A stretch of DNA of 53,860 nt from Patescibacteria group bacterium (lineage in GTDB: Bacteria > Patescibacteriota > Microgenomatia > UBA1400 > PJMF01): the NCBI GenBank assembly GCA_019454415.1, contig JACFOI010000001.1:6187-60046 (forward strand), written 5' to 3'. Below are positions 3,271 to 15,970 of the stretch, piece by piece. A program made the translations under genes and the position numbers. The stretch's first letter is position 1, and each line of letters starts with the position of its first letter. The notes beneath the pieces were generated by a model, which saw nothing but the letters and a program-made list of their open reading frames with translations, did not search any database and was not told the DNA's origin.

Positions 3271-6149
3271 GACTCCAAGCGTACTCGGAGAGTGGGTCCT
3301 TTGACAAGCTCTTTGACCTTGGTCTTTTGTTTGATCCGGTCTTCCCACTCTGCTGGCCAGCTGGGTGCTTCAACGACCACCAGCTCCCCCACTTCCACGC
3401 CGGCTTCTTTCCGCAGCTGTTGGATCGAGCGCATCAGCTCTCTAGCCTCACCTTCGACTTGTAGTTCAGGCGTCAGTGTGGTGTCGAGCTTGACAGAAAA
3501 GACGCTGACATCATTTGGTTTCCAGACTAGCTGTTTGACGTTGATCTCCTGTTTGACCACGTCTTCGACTGCAGCACTCTTGAGCTGTTCTGCTCCCCCC
3601 ACAATGGCGGCGAGCAACGGCTGGCGGACCTTCAACCCCAGCTCTTTTCGCTGAGCATGTGCTTCGACCACCACTTGTCGGGCTAGGCTCATCTCTTGTT
3701 CGAGACTCTGATCGCGGAGGGCTGGGTCTACTTTGGGCCACTCAGCCAGGTGGACGGACTGTTTGTCCCCCAATAGTTCCTGGTAAGTCAGCTCGCTGAA
3801 GAACGGCGTCAATGGTGCAAACAGCTTGGCCAGCGTCACCAGCACATAGCCGAAAACTTGTCCGGCTTCCAGACCGGCGGCGTCGGTTTCTTTCAACCGC
3901 TCGCGACTTTGGCGGAGATACCAGGTAGACAGCTCATCGACAAACTCTATCAGGTTACGGCTGGCGCGAACTACGTCGTAGTTATCCATGTCGGTGGTGA
4001 CCCGTTCAACGAGGGCGGTCAGCTGGGATAAGATCCAGCGATCCATGACGTGACTGACCTGTGCGGGTGGTTCTCCAATAGAGACAGCTTCCTTTTCCAG
4101 CTGCGGCGCCACAAAGGTCTGATAGAAAGCAAAGACATTCCACCAGATCACAAACACTTTCTTGCGCAGCTCGCTGACCTCTTTCTCGCTGAAGTTGAGG
4201 TTGTCCCCTTTCATCACCACCGAGCTCATCAAGTACAGGCGCAAGCTATCCACGCCGTACTTATCCACTACCAGCATCGGATCGGGGTAGTTCTTTTTGG
4301 ACTTACTCATCTTGGCGCCGTCTTCGGCCAGAATAGTGCCGGTGGTCAGGGCGTTCTGAAAGGCGGGTGCATCAAACAGCCCGACCGAGATGACGTGCAT
4401 ACAGTAGAACCAGGCGCGGGTCTGGGCGATGTACTCGGAGATAAACTGAGCCGGATAGTTCTTGTCAAACCAGTTTTTGTTCTCGAACGGATAGTGAACA
4501 GCCGCAAACGGCATGCTGCCGCTCTCCACCCAGCAGTCAAAGACTTCAGGAATGCGTTTACCTTTAACCGTCTTGGCGTCGTCAACCCAGACTTCGAGAT
4601 CATCGAGGAACTCACGGTGAATGTCCGTCAGAGCATCTACCTTTTCCGGCTCAACTGCCCACTGACGCAGCTCATCGATTGAACCGATCACCCGATACTG
4701 GCTCGACAGTTGACCTTTTTTGGGTGGAGCTTGCCAGACGGGCATCGGCGTGCCCCAGTAGCGGGAGCGGGAGATATTCCAGTCCGGTGCCGTCTCCAGG
4801 CCTTTGCCAAAGCGACCGTACTTCAGGTACTCTGGGAACCAGTTGATCGCGTGGTTATGCTTGACCAGCCGCTCTTTCAACTGCTGGACGTTGATGAACC
4901 AGGCTGGGACGGCGTTGTAGTACAGCGGCGTGCCGCAGCGGTAACAGAACGGGTAGGAGTGGGTGTACTTCTCGGCCTTGTAGATCAGGTCGCGATGGGC
5001 CAGCTCATCGATCAAGATCTGTTCAGCTTTCTTGTAAAAGATACCAGCCACCGGCTCAACAAACTCAAAGAACTTGCCTTCCTCATCCAGGGTGGGGACG
5101 CATGGCAGATTACGCTCTTGAGCCAGGGCATAGTCATCCTCACCGTAGATGGCTGCGGTGTGAACGATACCGGTGCCGTCTTCGAGACTGACAAAGTTGG
5201 CCGTCATCACGTAATGGGCCTTTTTGCCATCCAACGGCATATAGCTAAAGAGCGGCTCATACTCGATTCCGTCCAGCTCGCTCCCCTTGACTGTTTTGAC
5301 GACCTCGGGATGGCTGATCTCATGCATCTTGACCAGCTCCGCCACTTTTTCTTTGGCAGCCCAGTAGCGTTCCTGGCCGACTTCAAACAACGAGTACTCG
5401 GCATCTGGTAGCACAGCCAGACCGACGTTGCCGGGCAAAGTCCATGGTGTGGTCGTCCAGGCCAGGAAGTACTCATTGGGCGTATCCTTGCGACGAAACT
5501 TGACGTAGACGGAGTTGTCATCCACGTCTTTGTAGGAGTTGTCCATGGCTATCTCAAAGTTAGACAGCGGGGTGGCACAGCGCGGACAGTAGAGGACGAC
5601 CTTGCGACCTTGGTAGATATGGTCGTGCTTGTGCAGCTGGGAGAAGCCCCACCAGACTGACTCCATGTAGTTCTTGTCCATGGTCTTGTAGGAGTTTTTG
5701 AAGTCTACCCAGCGGCCGATCCGGCGAATAATCACTTCCCAGTCCTTGTCGAAGCGCAAGATTGCGGCTCGGCAGGCTGCGTTGAAGTTATCGATGCCAT
5801 AGGCCTCAATCCCCTTTTTGCCGCCCTGGAGCTGCAGCTCACCCTCGATCATGTTTTCGATTGGCAAGCCGTGGCAGTCCCAGCCCCAGACGCGCTCGAC
5901 TCGGTAGCCTTTCATCGTCCAATAGCGAGGAATGACGTCCTTAGTAGTGGAAGCTAACAGGTGACCGTAGTGGGGCAGCCCTGTGGCAAACGGCGGACCG
6001 TCGTAGAAGACATAGGCGTGGTCAGCTGGGCGTGACTCGACCGACTTGCGGAAGGTGTTGTCAGCATCCCAGTAGCTAAGGATCTCTTCTTCAAGCTTGG
6101 GAAAGTCAGGCGTCTTGCTGAAGTCAAGGTTGCGAGCAGTTTTTGGCAT
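3267..6149 (-). CDS. ileS: Isoleucyl-tRNA synthetase, eukaryote-like (type 2) form
   Basis: The 960-residue class I synthetase charges tRNA-Ile. The HIGH-type motif is HYGH at residues 60-63 and the KMSKS loop (AKMSKSKKNYPDP) is near 610. Cys-x2-Cys pairs occur in the editing/Rossmann region (CPRCATPLSNFE, CYRCGTP). The segments WVESGSMPF and TILAEDGAKMSKS resemble the archaeal/eukaryotic-type enzymes rather than the common bacterial form, which usually has WFDSGSS and a C-terminal zinc knuckle. Type 2 enzymes are classically mupirocin-insensitive; that property is inferred here. A ribosome site AAGGA lies about 7 bases before the ATG, and the stop overlaps the rodA start. Confidence 0.97.
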   Translation of the reverse strand: MPKTARNLDFSKTPDFPKLEEEILSYWDADNTFRKSVESRPADHAYVFYDGPPFATGLPHYGHLLASTTKDVIPRYWTMKGYRVERVWGWDCHGLPIENMIEGELQLQGGKKGIEAYGIDNFNAACRAAILRFDKDWEVIIRRIGRWVDFKNSYKTMDKNYMESVWWGFSQLHKHDHIYQGRKVVLYCPRCATPLSNFEIAMDNSYKDVDDNSVYVKFRRKDTPNEYFLAWTTTPWTLPGNVGLAVLPDAEYSLFEVGQERYWAAKEKVAELVKMHEISHPEVVKTVKGSELDGIEYEPLFSYMPLDGKKAHYVMTANFVSLEDGTGIVHTAAIYGEDDYALAQERNLPCVPTLDEEGKFFEFVEPVAGIFYKKAEQILIDELAHRDLIYKAEKYTHSYPFCYRCGTPLYYNAVPAWFINVQQLKERLVKHNHAINWFPEYLKYGRFGKGLETAPDWNISRSRYWGTPMPVWQAPPKKGQLSSQYRVIGSIDELRQWAVEPEKVDALTDIHREFLDDLEVWVDDAKTVKGKRIPEVFDCWVESGSMPFAAVHYPFENKNWFDKNYPAQFISEYIAQTRAWFYCMHVISVGLFDAPAFQNALTTGTILAEDGAKMSKSKKNYPDPMLVVDKYGVDSLRLYLMSSVVMKGDNLNFSEKEVSELRKKVFVIWWNVFAFYQTFVAPQLEKEAVSIGEPPAQVSHVMDRWILSQLTALVERVTTDMDNYDVVRASRNLIEFVDELSTWYLRQSRERLKETDAAGLEAGQVFGYVLVTLAKLFAPLTPFFSELTYQELLGDKQSVHLAEWPKVDPALRDQSLEQEMSLARQVVVEAHAQRKELGLKVRQPLLAAIVGGAEQLKSAAVEDVVKQEINVKQLVWKPNDVSVFSVKLDTTLTPELQVEGEARELMRSIQQLRKEAGVEVGELVVVEAPSWPAEWEDRIKQKTKVKELVKGPTLRVRLES

Positions 6150-6169
6150 AGGGTTCTTCCTTTTTATGG

Positions 6170-6197
6170 TTGATTTTTCGATGTTTGGTTTTATACT
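6170..6197 (+). promoter_or_regulatory. Candidate plus-strand promoter in the ileS leader
   Basis: TTGATT at 6170-6175 and TATACT at 6192-6197 are separated by 16 bases. The expected start is near 6204, about 38 bases before a strong plus-strand terminator hairpin. No plus-strand protein gene follows. On the minus strand the same stretch contains TATAAA, which could be a weak -10 for ileS itself. Confidence 0.35.
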
Positions 6198-6203
6198 AAT
6201 GAT

Positions 6204-6271
6204 GGTCTCAATACGCGAAACTGTATTCCTAAAGGAATCGGAGAACCTCTTTGTGAAGAGGTTCTTTTTTT
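6204..6271 (+). ncRNA. Candidate short RNA antisense to the ileS leader
   Basis: Between a plausible plus-strand promoter and a strong intrinsic terminator lie about 65 bases with no start codon or reading frame of note. They can form a small hairpin (ATTCC, loop TAAA, GGAAT at about 6224-6237) followed by the terminator stem. The RNA would be complementary to the ileS leader 55 to 120 bases upstream of the ileS start. Existence and role are inferred from signals only. Confidence 0.3.
6242..6271 (+). terminator. Intrinsic terminator, plus strand
   Basis: A perfect 10-bp stem, AGAACCTCTT with AAGAGGTTCT, closes a TGTG loop and is followed by seven T residues. The T tract is only on the plus strand, so it stops plus-strand transcription although the nearest upstream plus-strand gene ends at 2187. 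Confidence 0.7.
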
Positions 6272-6323
6272 GCTTTTTTACGGTTTTTGTAAGGTTCTGT
6301 CAGTACACTCTTCTACGGCGGAG

Positions 6324-6414
6324 GGAGAGTATTGTGTCTTGGTTGGACATCACGTATTGAGACTACGTCGATTCCTCTCACAAGAATGCAGTTCGATTCT
6401 GCTGCTCTCCGCCA
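6324..6414 (+). tRNA. Class II tRNA-like gene with 8/4 fold, anticodon GAG (allo-tRNA-like)
   Basis: The 91 bases end in an encoded G-CCA. The best fold has an 8-bp acceptor stem (6324-6331 with 6403-6410, one G-T pair) and a two-base linker. A 5-bp D stem (6334-6338/6346-6350) closes a TTGGTTG loop. The anticodon stem is 5 bp (ACGTA/TACGT) with loop TTGAGAC, and a long variable arm has a 4-bp stem. The T stem is 4 bp (GCAG/CTGC) with loop TTCGATT. A standard 7/5 reading puts a T-T mismatch at the base of the T stem and leaves a four-base gap before the D stem. G73 and the long variable arm are serine-type features, while GAG would read Leu CUU/CUC codons. TACACT at 6304-6309 may be its -10. 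It could also be a decayed tRNA. Confidence 0.55.
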
Positions 6415-6439
6415 CCATGGCCAGCTCCTTTTCCCTACG

Positions 6440-6484
6440 AAAAAACCTCCACACGTCACCAATACTGATGAGTTGTGGAGGTTT
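6440..6484 (-). terminator. Intrinsic terminator of a minus-strand leader or ncRNA
   Basis: On the minus strand AAACCTCCACA (6484-6474) pairs with TGTGGAGGTTT (6453-6443) in an 11-bp stem over a 20-base loop, ending in six T residues at 6445-6440. It lies about 290 bases upstream of the ileS start, in the same orientation. Confidence 0.65.
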
Positions 6485-6725
6485 CTCAGGTTTCCAGAAA
6501 GGTACCAACCTCTGTGTTCTTGTTTCCGGCTGTTACGGGCGTACCCGGAGAGGTCTAGTTTCTGAGACAGGGGTGGTTCTAACCCGACGTGCCCTCGGCA
6601 CCTGCGACTCAGATTTCTGCTCTCGCCTTGTGGAGTGATAACCCCACTCAAACGGCTGTGCGATCTGTGGGTCTATTTTACTGCTTGCTGGCCCATTTGG
6701 ACAGTCCGAAGTTCTTTGACAGCAT
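6474..6725 (-). promoter_or_regulatory. Structured minus-strand leader with T-box-like antiterminator segment
   Basis: Upstream of the terminator the minus strand carries AGGTTGGTACC (6511-6501), which resembles the T-box core (TGGT would match the ACCA end of tRNA-Ile). Its GAGGTT (6512-6507) can pair with AACCTC (6483-6478), the 5' arm of the terminator, which would make the two folds exclusive. A TCCGG/CCGGA hairpin lies just before it, and GTGCC/GGCAC and GAGTG/CACTC hairpins lie further upstream. A possible ATC specifier sits in GAAATCTGAG near 6613. A canonical stem I could not be drawn with confidence, and ileS is unusually far downstream. It may instead be an unrelated ncRNA. Confidence 0.35.
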
Positions 6726-6768
6726 AGTATCAATATATATCTATCTATATTTTTATATATCAAATAGA

Positions 6769-6795
6769 TTAGCAGTTATGATGAATGACTGCTAA
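6769..6795. repeat. 27-bp dyad, copy A (upstream of the ileS leader)
   Basis: The perfect half-sites TTAGCAGT and ACTGCTAA are separated by 11 bases. The same dyad with the same 27-bp width occurs at 26751-26777 before mraZ, and the 15 bases TGACTGCTAAAATAG are identical in both. This suggests a protein operator or a shared RNA hairpin. Plus-strand TGCTAAAAT could also be an extended -10, but no plus-strand gene follows. Confidence 0.5.
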
Positions 6796-6830
6796 AATAG
6801 CTTGGAACAAAATTTACTTGATGTATAGGA

Positions 6831-7331
6831 CTAAAAACTAGCGTTCCGGCGTTTCTTCCGTTCGTCCCATATGTAGTTGCAGACCCAGGCGGTGATAAAA
6901 CTAAGGGCGATTAAGTAGAGTGCCAGACTCGAGTGAAGGACGACCCGTTCGCGAGTGAGACCAACAGTTAAGCCAGGCACGGACCTGGGTGGGCGCTCCC
7001 CATAGCTCCAGACCCCTACCGTCCCACAGGCTGGCAAGTAGAAACTCATCCGGTGAAAGTAGTATCCGGTTTCCGGCGTATGACTCTCTCTTTTGACCCC
7101 ACAGTACACCGCCGCATGGCTGGCCGTAAACCAGATTACCAGGACAAGCGGAACCATGGTCAGCAGAATCTTCAGCCACTCATTCCGCAGGTAGCGGAGC
7201 AGGGGGACTGGTGAGGGGTTGAGCGATAAGTAGAAACCGTTGAAGACAGCAAAGCAGGCGGCGATGGCAGTCACGCCGTAGAAAATGGTAATCAGGACAA
7301 ACAGTGGTCCAATGACCAGATCACTATCCAT
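6831..7331 (-). CDS. Small membrane protein of unknown function, last gene of the division cluster
   Basis: I do not recognise the family. The 166-residue product has three likely membrane helices (about 6-30, 52-72 and 131-152), a middle region with two Cys (YCGVKRE, LPACGTVG), and a short basic C-terminal tail (WDERKKRRN). It starts 24 bases after the ftsZ stop in the same orientation, so co-transcription is likely. A role in division or envelope work is suggested only by position. No terminator is visible after it. Confidence 0.7.
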   Translation of the reverse strand: MDSDLVIGPLFVLITIFYGVTAIAACFAVFNGFYLSLNPSPVPLLRYLRNEWLKILLTMVPLVLVIWFTASHAAVYCGVKRESHTPETGYYFHRMSFYLPACGTVGVWSYGERPPRSVPGLTVGLTRERVVLHSSLALYLIALSFITAWVCNYIWDERKKRRNASF

Positions 7332-14545: not shown

Positions 14546-15970
14546 TTATCTCTTTTCGGAATCTCCACTGATCTCAACGACGGCATCCTGAAGAATCTCT
14601 TCAAACGCCTCCGGAATAAAATGTTGCGGAGCAAAGTTTCCTAACAGTTTGTGGGCGCGGGCTAAGAGGATCTCTTCCGATTTGCCCTCTTCCAGCAGTT
14701 TCTGCCAACCGTACGCGATCAGCTTAGGGGCTGGGTGCAGCTGCCGCACGGCCAGTGCGATAGCTGCTCGCGTCTCGTCACGGGTACCAACGCAATCGAG
14801 TGACTTGACCTCGGTAAAGCCGGCCAGCTGATCAAAGATATCAGTTAACTTGATGTTATTTAAGATCTCTTTATGAAAAATTCCAAACAGCTCTTTGGAA
14901 GACAAAAAGGCAGAGAGCATTACACTCACAAAGAGGCATTTAGCGCACTCGCCGCACCACTCACCTTTTCGTTGGCCTCTGTTGCAGCTCAGGAAAACCG
15001 GCCAATAGTCACGATAGCGGGTAAAAAGTTTGGCAATCTGTAGCTCGTGGAGCGGCCGCAGAAAGCTGAAGTAGTCAATCGTTGTGGAGAGATACTTGCG
15101 CAGATGTGCTCGGAACAGCTCTTCAAACTCGACTGTCTTCGAGTATTGGTGGTTAATGGTCTGTCCCAGAAAAACGGTGTTGCCTTCGTTAGCACTCCAC
15201 TCGTTGGATAGCGGAACGTATTGGTAGTCATATAGATAGGCGGTCAGGGTGCTGACAAACGCCAACATTGCAGAGAACGGTGTGTGACCGTTCAAGTAGC
15301 CCTGCTTGTTGAGTTCTACCAGTTGCGGATCAAGACGGCGCTGCACAATTAAGTGACTCCGCTCTGAAGAGTTCTTCCAGAAGACGTCGATCACTTTAGC
15401 GATGTACGGCTGGTGATAGGAGTCAACGCTGAAAGTAGTTATTGGAAGGTTGGCTTTGCGCAGCAGCTCGGCCGTCACTACTGAGTCTTTGCCCCCGCCG
15501 ATCGGAATCAGCAAGCGGGGTGTATGCGACGTTTCGTTGACTTGGGGATGGAGTTGTCTCTCTTCCGGAACCTTGACCTGAAAATGAACAAAGTTCTCTT
15601 GCCAACCATCAATCTCATGCAGGAAAAAGAACTCACTTAGCCCTTTGCGAAGGATGTTCTGCCAAAAGGGGAACTGCTCAGCTGTAATTCCGGGGACATT
15701 GATGATCCACTCCGGTGAACAGGCAGCTTTCCAGTAGGAGAGTCCTTCGATCATTCCCAAGTGCGCAGCCCAGACTTTGATCAACTCTTCATCCTTAGTA
15801 GCCAGCTTTTCCGGACTAATCCCCGGAAAACACCAACTGGTCGTGAGTTCCGGACCATTCGCAAAGTGATACTTGAGAAAGATAAGCAGGTCCCGATCTT
15901 GGTGTTCGAGCACTACCTGATCAAAGTAAAACTGGGGATGATTCTTTCGTAGTTCTTCAAGTGTTTTCAT
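14546..15970 (-). CDS. murL: UDP-MurNAc-L-Ala-L-Glu epimerase MurL
   Basis: The 474-residue protein has an ATP-pyrophosphatase-type loop IPIGGGKDSVVTAELL at 155-170 and a cysteine cluster WCGECAKCLF near 334-345. Its overall layout matches MurL, an ATP-using epimerase that converts the terminal L-Glu of UDP-MurNAc-L-Ala-L-Glu to D-Glu. MurL replaces the need for glutamate racemase MurI. Its place between mraY and murD in a wall cluster strongly supports the role. The alternative is another PP-loop enzyme of unknown substrate. Confidence 0.85.
   Translation of the reverse strand: MKTLEELRKNHPQFYFDQVVLEHQDRDLLIFLKYHFANGPELTTSWCFPGISPEKLATKDEELIKVWAAHLGMIEGLSYWKAACSPEWIINVPGITAEQFPFWQNILRKGLSEFFFLHEIDGWQENFVHFQVKVPEERQLHPQVNETSHTPRLLIPIGGGKDSVVTAELLRKANLPITTFSVDSYHQPYIAKVIDVFWKNSSERSHLIVQRRLDPQLVELNKQGYLNGHTPFSAMLAFVSTLTAYLYDYQYVPLSNEWSANEGNTVFLGQTINHQYSKTVEFEELFRAHLRKYLSTTIDYFSFLRPLHELQIAKLFTRYRDYWPVFLSCNRGQRKGEWCGECAKCLFVSVMLSAFLSSKELFGIFHKEILNNIKLTDIFDQLAGFTEVKSLDCVGTRDETRAAIALAVRQLHPAPKLIAYGWQKLLEEGKSEEILLARAHKLLGNFAPQHFIPEAFEEILQDAVVEISGDSEKR

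Follow-up and report, generated by a model that had tools for sequence, protein, structure and literature searches.

A serine-type tRNA gene of 8/4 architecture and an adjoining predicted antisense RNA gene in a Patescibacteria genome

What might a bacterium do with a tRNA gene that combines a serine-type body with the leucine-type anticodon GAG? The question is raised by positions 6324–6414 (+) of a 53,860-nucleotide stretch of DNA from a Patescibacteria group bacterium (the whole stretch is referred to here as the window), where ARAGORN calls a tRNA-Leu(gag) and finds no second tRNA in the window. By direct reading, the acceptor stem of this tRNA is GGAGAGTA/TGCTCTCC (6324–6331/6403–6410; 8 bp including one U.G pair), the anticodon stem is ACGTA/TACGT (6352–6356/6364–6368; 5 bp), the variable arm is ATTC/GAAT (6371–6374/6384–6387; a 4-bp stem with a 9-nt loop, compared with 4–6 bp in relatives), and the T stem is GCAG/CTGC (6388–6391/6399–6402; 4 bp), which closes the T loop TTCGATT. 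G73 is at 6411, an encoded CCA follows at 6412–6414, and the anticodon (6359–6361) lies within the loop TTGAGAC (6357–6363); an earlier note on this DNA had listed these last features together with the long variable arm, and direct reading and ARAGORN agree with it. The same note gave the D stem (6334–6339/6345–6350) as 5 bp; five pairs are indeed seen, but since a terminal U.G pair can be added, leaving a 5-nt loop, the stem is better read as 6 bp.

The central claim of that note was that the gene has the 8/4 pairing of allo-tRNAs and that no other fold pairs cleanly, and direct reading supports it: a 7/5 fold is impossible without a T.T pair at 49–65. An unconstrained fold of the window tRNA forms the 8-bp acceptor, the 4-bp T stem and the anticodon stem, with the D arm and the variable arm absent. 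(Placing A73 at 6414, with GGCGGAG for the acceptor, gives an alternative register, which was rejected because it puts the T arm three bases off.) In 21.5 Mb of shuffled window sequence ARAGORN made only 2 poor calls, and a strict 8/4 scanner found the window tRNA alone, with no match across 10.8 Mb of shuffles. Among approximately 120 class II tRNAs that share the same sequence frame, drawn from public genomes and viral contigs, only the window tRNA and one relative are 8/4-only. The Rfam tRNA and tRNA-Sec models did not report the window tRNA even at E 10. The assignment rests on ARAGORN, on the scanner and its shuffles, and on covariation with five relatives that are described below. (Note that the 3′ end is encoded as CCACCA, at 6412–6417, on a tRNA that starts with GG. 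CCACCA on GG-starting tRNAs is a decay mark.)

The genome from which the window derives (1.08 Mb in 40 contigs, 94.8% complete) encodes five leucine isoacceptors besides the window tRNA (anticodons TAG, GAG, CAG, TAA and CAA) and five serine isoacceptors (CGA, TGA, GGA, GCT and ACT). Because both ordinary sets are full, the window tRNA is extra, or redundant. The second, normal tRNA-Leu(GAG) that the earlier note had suggested looking for is therefore present, as are the five tRNA-Ser; it starts with GCCGAGG and has A73. The window tRNA, with its GGA start, G73 and long variable arm, is like the five tRNA-Ser of its own genome and unlike the five tRNA-Leu, so that the serine-type body proposed from the sequence alone stands; with GGAGAG and G73 in place of the GCCGA and A73 of its own tRNA-Leu, it does not meet the criterion for a leucine-type tRNA. 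Judged by its sequence, the window tRNA has the structure by which 8/4 allo-tRNAs are defined, with charging by serine and use in translation being inferred. (A tRNA-Ser with anticodon ACU, which has A34 in a two-codon box, occurs besides the GCU isoacceptor on contig C40 of the same genome, locus L021, as well as at loci L078 and L426, and recurs in relatives.)

These findings bear on several plainer readings, in which the gene would encode a tRNA-Leu(GAG) of the usual kind, a tRNA-Ser that has decayed or a selenocysteine tRNA whose anticodon has changed, or in which the fold would be due to chance. The ARAGORN label points to tRNA-Leu, and the long D stem and 8-bp acceptor are like those of tRNA-Sec. 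However, the genome has its normal tRNA-Leu(GAG), with A73, the stems are intact and covary, SelA (PF03841) was not matched in the genome at its 94.8% completeness, and the strict scanner found nothing in the shuffles. We regard this group of readings as largely refuted and scarcely credible. (The tRNA-Sec model RF01852 was set aside as uninformative, since it matches class II tRNAs everywhere, and PF03841 gave one sub-threshold, 16-bit match in G594, the genome of a relative described below.)

An additional serine-type tRNA with an anticodon for CUU and CUC could simply reflect a changed code. CTT and CTC account for 269 of the 8644 codons (3.1%) in 20 window genes. In IleRS, the columns that these two codons occupy hold leucine in 76% and 51% of cases and serine in 1% and 3%, similar to the columns of other Leu codons. 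As the CUU/CUC columns in IleRS are mostly leucine, the CUY code is not reassigned, and reassignment of CUY codons to serine was rejected on the ground that these columns are conserved leucine.

The earlier note had named compensatory changes in relatives that favour a 7/5 fold, or loss of pairing, as outcomes that would refute it. A nucleotide search of 51 relatives with the window tRNA gave short chance matches only, and a single-sequence model of the window tRNA (R1) found no homologue in the order (88 genomes) or the class (374 genomes). In a phylum sample (380 genomes), R1 found, among ordinary tRNA-Ser and tRNA-Phe, an 8/4 tRNA that ARAGORN had missed (L109, in genome G594 from another family of the phylum). 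L109 folds freely into a cloverleaf with an 8-bp acceptor, a 6-bp D stem, a 4-nt D loop and a 4-bp T stem, and it differs from the window tRNA on both sides of 11 pairs. In the class of G594, model R2 found ordinary tRNAs only. A structure-weighted model (R3), made from the window tRNA and nine synthetic rows with randomised paired changes, scored the unseen L109 at 48.6 bits, narrowly above the best ordinary tRNA tested (46.1), and, applied to the class of G680 (384 genomes), it detected four further loci (L421, L422, L423 and L424; 58 to 45 bits). All four are 8/4, with a 6-bp D stem, G73, the anticodon GAU and no encoded CCA; ARAGORN calls L422 alone, as tRNA-Ile. The covariance searches thus yielded five 8/4 serine-type relatives in the same phylum, one with anticodon AAC and four with GAU. 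(Note that because R3 was run on one class only, the frequency of these tRNAs is underestimated.)

Across the six 8/4 tRNAs, all of which have G73, 95% of cells pair and 19 of 27 pairs show changes on both sides; in the acceptor and D stem every cell is paired. The alignment was fitted to the model and the pair counts therefore lean towards it, but the eighth acceptor pair (A-U in four of the six, G-C in the other two) and the missing 49–65 pair can be read from the sequences directly, independently of that alignment. Distant relatives thus keep the 8/4 architecture with a covarying eighth pair and provide neither support for a 7/5 fold nor any loss of pairing. A strict scan of the 3.4 Mb of collected sequence found the six 8/4 tRNAs and nothing else. 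At the sensitivity used, pattern searches of IMG/VR gave ordinary tRNAs or unrelated DNA, and the viral contigs yielded no 8/4 module; two viral candidates (L294 and L340) passed a loose scanner, failed the strict one and were rejected. The six tRNAs are an allo-tRNA family and, going by the review PMC7609411, the first for this phylum. (In most of the five relatives the anticodon-stem pair next to the loop is mismatched, as C.A or C.C, which may widen the loop to 9 nt; the window tRNA has A-U at this place.)

Although the allo-tRNA reading is upheld, the earlier note missed that the tRNA gene is one half of a module that includes an antisense RNA gene. Upstream of the window tRNA and on the same strand, a scan found a promoter-like site, TTGATT-16-TATACT (6170–6197, +), with a similar site in relatives. 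It precedes a predicted antisense small RNA of approximately 70 nt (6204–6273, +), the start of which is inferred from the −10 box and for which there are no transcript data. A repeat search located the seed of this RNA at 6205–6218 (+), where 13 of 14 positions (11 of them exact and contiguous, at 6205–6215) are complementary to tRNA positions 6350–6363, so that the whole anticodon loop is covered; an intrinsic terminator with a 12-bp stem and a T run is at 6240–6272 (+). A match of 13/14 was reached by 2 of 2000 shuffles of the upstream region.

The same arrangement recurs. Five of the six 8/4 loci, the window included, have a same-strand upstream small RNA gene made up of promoter, seed, hairpin and terminator. 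Loci L421–L424, which were found by tRNA structure alone after the complement in the window had been noticed, carry upstream, same-strand, exact complements of their anticodon arms of 10, 11, 13 and 14 nt. In each of the five module loci the seed starts 4–8 nt past the −10 box, with a small hairpin and then the terminator behind it; the predicted RNAs are 70–84 nt long and have the seed at the 5′ end. The small RNA promoters of the relatives, in the same place, are TTGACA-16-TATAAT or close variants, of which the window matches 9/12. Each seed matches its own tRNA exactly over 10–14 nt (−18.6 to −27.2 kcal/mol) and the arms of other loci over at most 8 nt. Of 1370 ordinary tRNAs in the collected loci that served as a control, 7 had a 10-nt upstream match and 0 a match of at least 11 nt, and none was preceded by a promoter better than 8/12. 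L109 has no matching small RNA gene alongside, and the gap between it and the next reading frame is just 64 bp. We are highly confident that a two-RNA module of allo-tRNA gene and antisense RNA gene exists; its expression is inferred. A co-varying antisense RNA against a tRNA anticodon was not found in the literature searched, which comprised open-access papers only. (In L422, an insertion-like inverted-repeat stretch of approximately 120 bp, CTCTGAAAAAC...GTTTTTCAGAG, lies between the small RNA and the tRNA.)

The tRNA half of the module has control parts of its own. The window tRNA gene has a possible weak −10 box, TACACT (6304–6309, +), recognised by direct reading and unscored by the promoter scan. 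In L421–L424 a TATAAT or TAGAAT box stands 17–20 nt ahead of the tRNA, the TATAAT boxes of L422–L424 being stronger than the box in the window; window promoters are weaker than those of the relatives. The pre-tRNA leader, GGCGGAG (6317–6323, +), is complementary to 6407–6413, the 3′ end of its own tRNA, and a GCGGAG-like leader with such complementarity over 6–10 nt is found in all five module loci, compared with complementarity of at least 6 nt in 46 of 1370 ordinary tRNAs.

The window tRNA gene is flanked by ileS (−, start at 6149) on one side and, on the other, by the terminator that belongs to a T-box-like ileS leader (a GGTTGGTACC element plus terminator, about 6690–6441, −). In G001, a genome of the same genus, the ileS start and the T-box-like leader are kept and approximately 270 bp with the tRNA and the upstream part are missing; R1 has no match in the whole of G001. 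The neighbours differ between loci, being ileS; rpoC and a TrmB-type regulator; a TPR protein and a lectin-fold protein; secF; or rpe and a transketolase. The differing neighbours and the absence from G001 fit a mobile or dispensable cassette. (The ileS leader is possibly a short T-box type of this group. Many family members have a canonical GGTGGTACC; tested against the Rfam T-box, the leader of one relative matched below threshold, with 27.8 bits against 93, and that of the window was unmatched. Near ileS in one family member, L047, a DUF3800-V RNA motif is found at 303–397, +; RF02964, 62.8 bits. Elsewhere in the window, 652–2187, +, encodes two adjoining proteins with a common repeated C-terminal domain, the second of which weakly matches the phage baseplate Gp10 C-terminal domain, and 14546–15970, −, encodes a 474-aa protein without a Pfam match in a cell-wall gene cluster.)

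Given this setting, the upstream RNA could be a T-box-like attenuator that senses the tRNA and controls its gene by terminator read-through. The order of seed, hairpin, terminator and tRNA is leader-like, and a T-box-like leader does control ileS nearby on the other strand. However, the tRNA genes of the relatives have their own TATAAT boxes past the terminator, the complementarity of 10–14 nt exceeds a 3-nt specifier, a 120-bp inverted repeat parts the two genes in L422, and RF00230 has no match on the tRNA strand. We consider an attenuator very unlikely.

The sequences themselves establish how the tRNA is built, that this architecture covaries in relatives, that the tRNA is redundant, and that a gene for a predicted antisense RNA is conserved and co-varies with it. 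The function that we prefer goes further. Seryl-tRNA synthetase would charge the window allo-tRNA, and free charged allo-tRNA(GAG) would put serine at CUU/CUC leucine codons; since these codons are still leucine and account for 3.1% of the total, harm is to be expected from free Ser-tRNA(GAG). The antisense RNA would normally cover the anticodon and silence the allo-tRNA, which would be set free once the short RNA is lost or decays, so that the pair would act like an RNA-RNA toxin-antitoxin or addiction module. Having an adjacent predicted small RNA that is complementary to the would-be toxin tRNA, the locus meets the sequence criterion for such a module, a toxicity of one part that the other relieves being inferred. 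The lack of a small RNA at L109, the weaker window promoters and the absence of expression, charging or toxicity data count against it. Expression, charging, toxicity and silencing all being inferred, we hold the toxin-antitoxin-like function, in which a dedicated antisense RNA would keep a mis-decoding serine tRNA silent, with no more than moderate confidence, and it could equally well prove wrong.

The intact structure and the preserved control parts could also be read as regulated mistranslation, in which the tRNA deliberately and beneficially inserts serine at certain Leu (or Ile, Val) codons and has its own level adjusted by the antisense RNA, and allo-tRNAs do function in E. coli translation (PMC7609411). 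That CUY codons sit at conserved leucine sites and that the distribution is rare and scattered argue otherwise, and we think this unlikely. A role outside translation would make the tRNA a decoy, guide or amino-acid donor, with small RNA pairing as the output (for example, a sponge). Pairing at the anticodon loop and the poor last anticodon-stem pair of several members are in keeping with such a role, but the acceptor end, G73 and T loop, which are needed for charging and EF-Tu, are kept, and a FemAB-type cell-wall use was rejected, as no such transferase gene is among the window ORFs scanned; it seems improbable to us. The toxin-antitoxin-like reading remains the one that we prefer. Its extension, a new RNA-only toxin-antitoxin or defence class in which a Ser-accepting tRNA would mis-decode Leu, Ile or Val codons, a short RNA would mask the anticodon, and the module would have spread as an intergenic cassette across at least one bacterial phylum, is offered tentatively, and we lean slightly against it.

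How does the module compare with known systems? As in T-box riboswitches, a tRNA anticodon is the partner of an RNA that carries a terminator; unlike in those, the RNA is short and terminated, and 10–14 nt at its 5′ end take part in the pairing. (RF00230 had no match in 6150–6850 at E 10; note that ileS leaders of this family also score low.) Allo-tRNAs of the 8/4 type were reportedly described by Mukai et al. in 2017. Like known allo-tRNAs, the window family splits a 12-bp acceptor branch 8/4, has a long variable arm and combines serine identity features with non-serine anticodons. Such tRNAs have been reported in Clostridia, Proteobacteria and Acidobacteria (PMC7609411), whereas the phylum of the window family is outside this review's list. 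Those of Silvibacterium, of which the CUC-reading one is 8/4 or 9/3, put serine at CUC and UUA codons in E. coli, and the natural role of allo-tRNAs is called speculative (PMC7609411). An anticodon-directed, co-varying antisense RNA gives a concrete lead on that role: in carriers, the tRNA appears to be kept locked. The co-varying antisense RNA gene and the 3′-end-complementary leader set the window module apart, neither being mentioned in the literature consulted, and novelty rests on the two-RNA module, not on the tRNA taken alone. With tRNA-Sec the family has in common an 8-bp acceptor, a D stem that is long and closes a short loop, a long variable arm and G73. It departs from tRNA-Sec in the 4-bp T stem and the anticodons GAG, GAU and AAC, and SelA had no match in the genome of the window. 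Some tRNA-Sec carry sense anticodons (PMC7609411). The window tRNA, with GAG, does not meet the UCA criterion of tRNA-Sec, which is not decisive alone. Toxin-antitoxin systems can rely on an antisense RNA (type I) or consist of two RNAs (type VIII). With these the module has in common an adjoining small RNA complementary to the product that it would silence, a patchy distribution and no conserved neighbours; it differs in that the would-be toxin, of inferred toxicity, is a tRNA, the target is its anticodon loop, and the genes do not overlap. If our reading is true, it would be a toxin-antitoxin type with a tRNA as the poison and the reading of the genetic code as the target.
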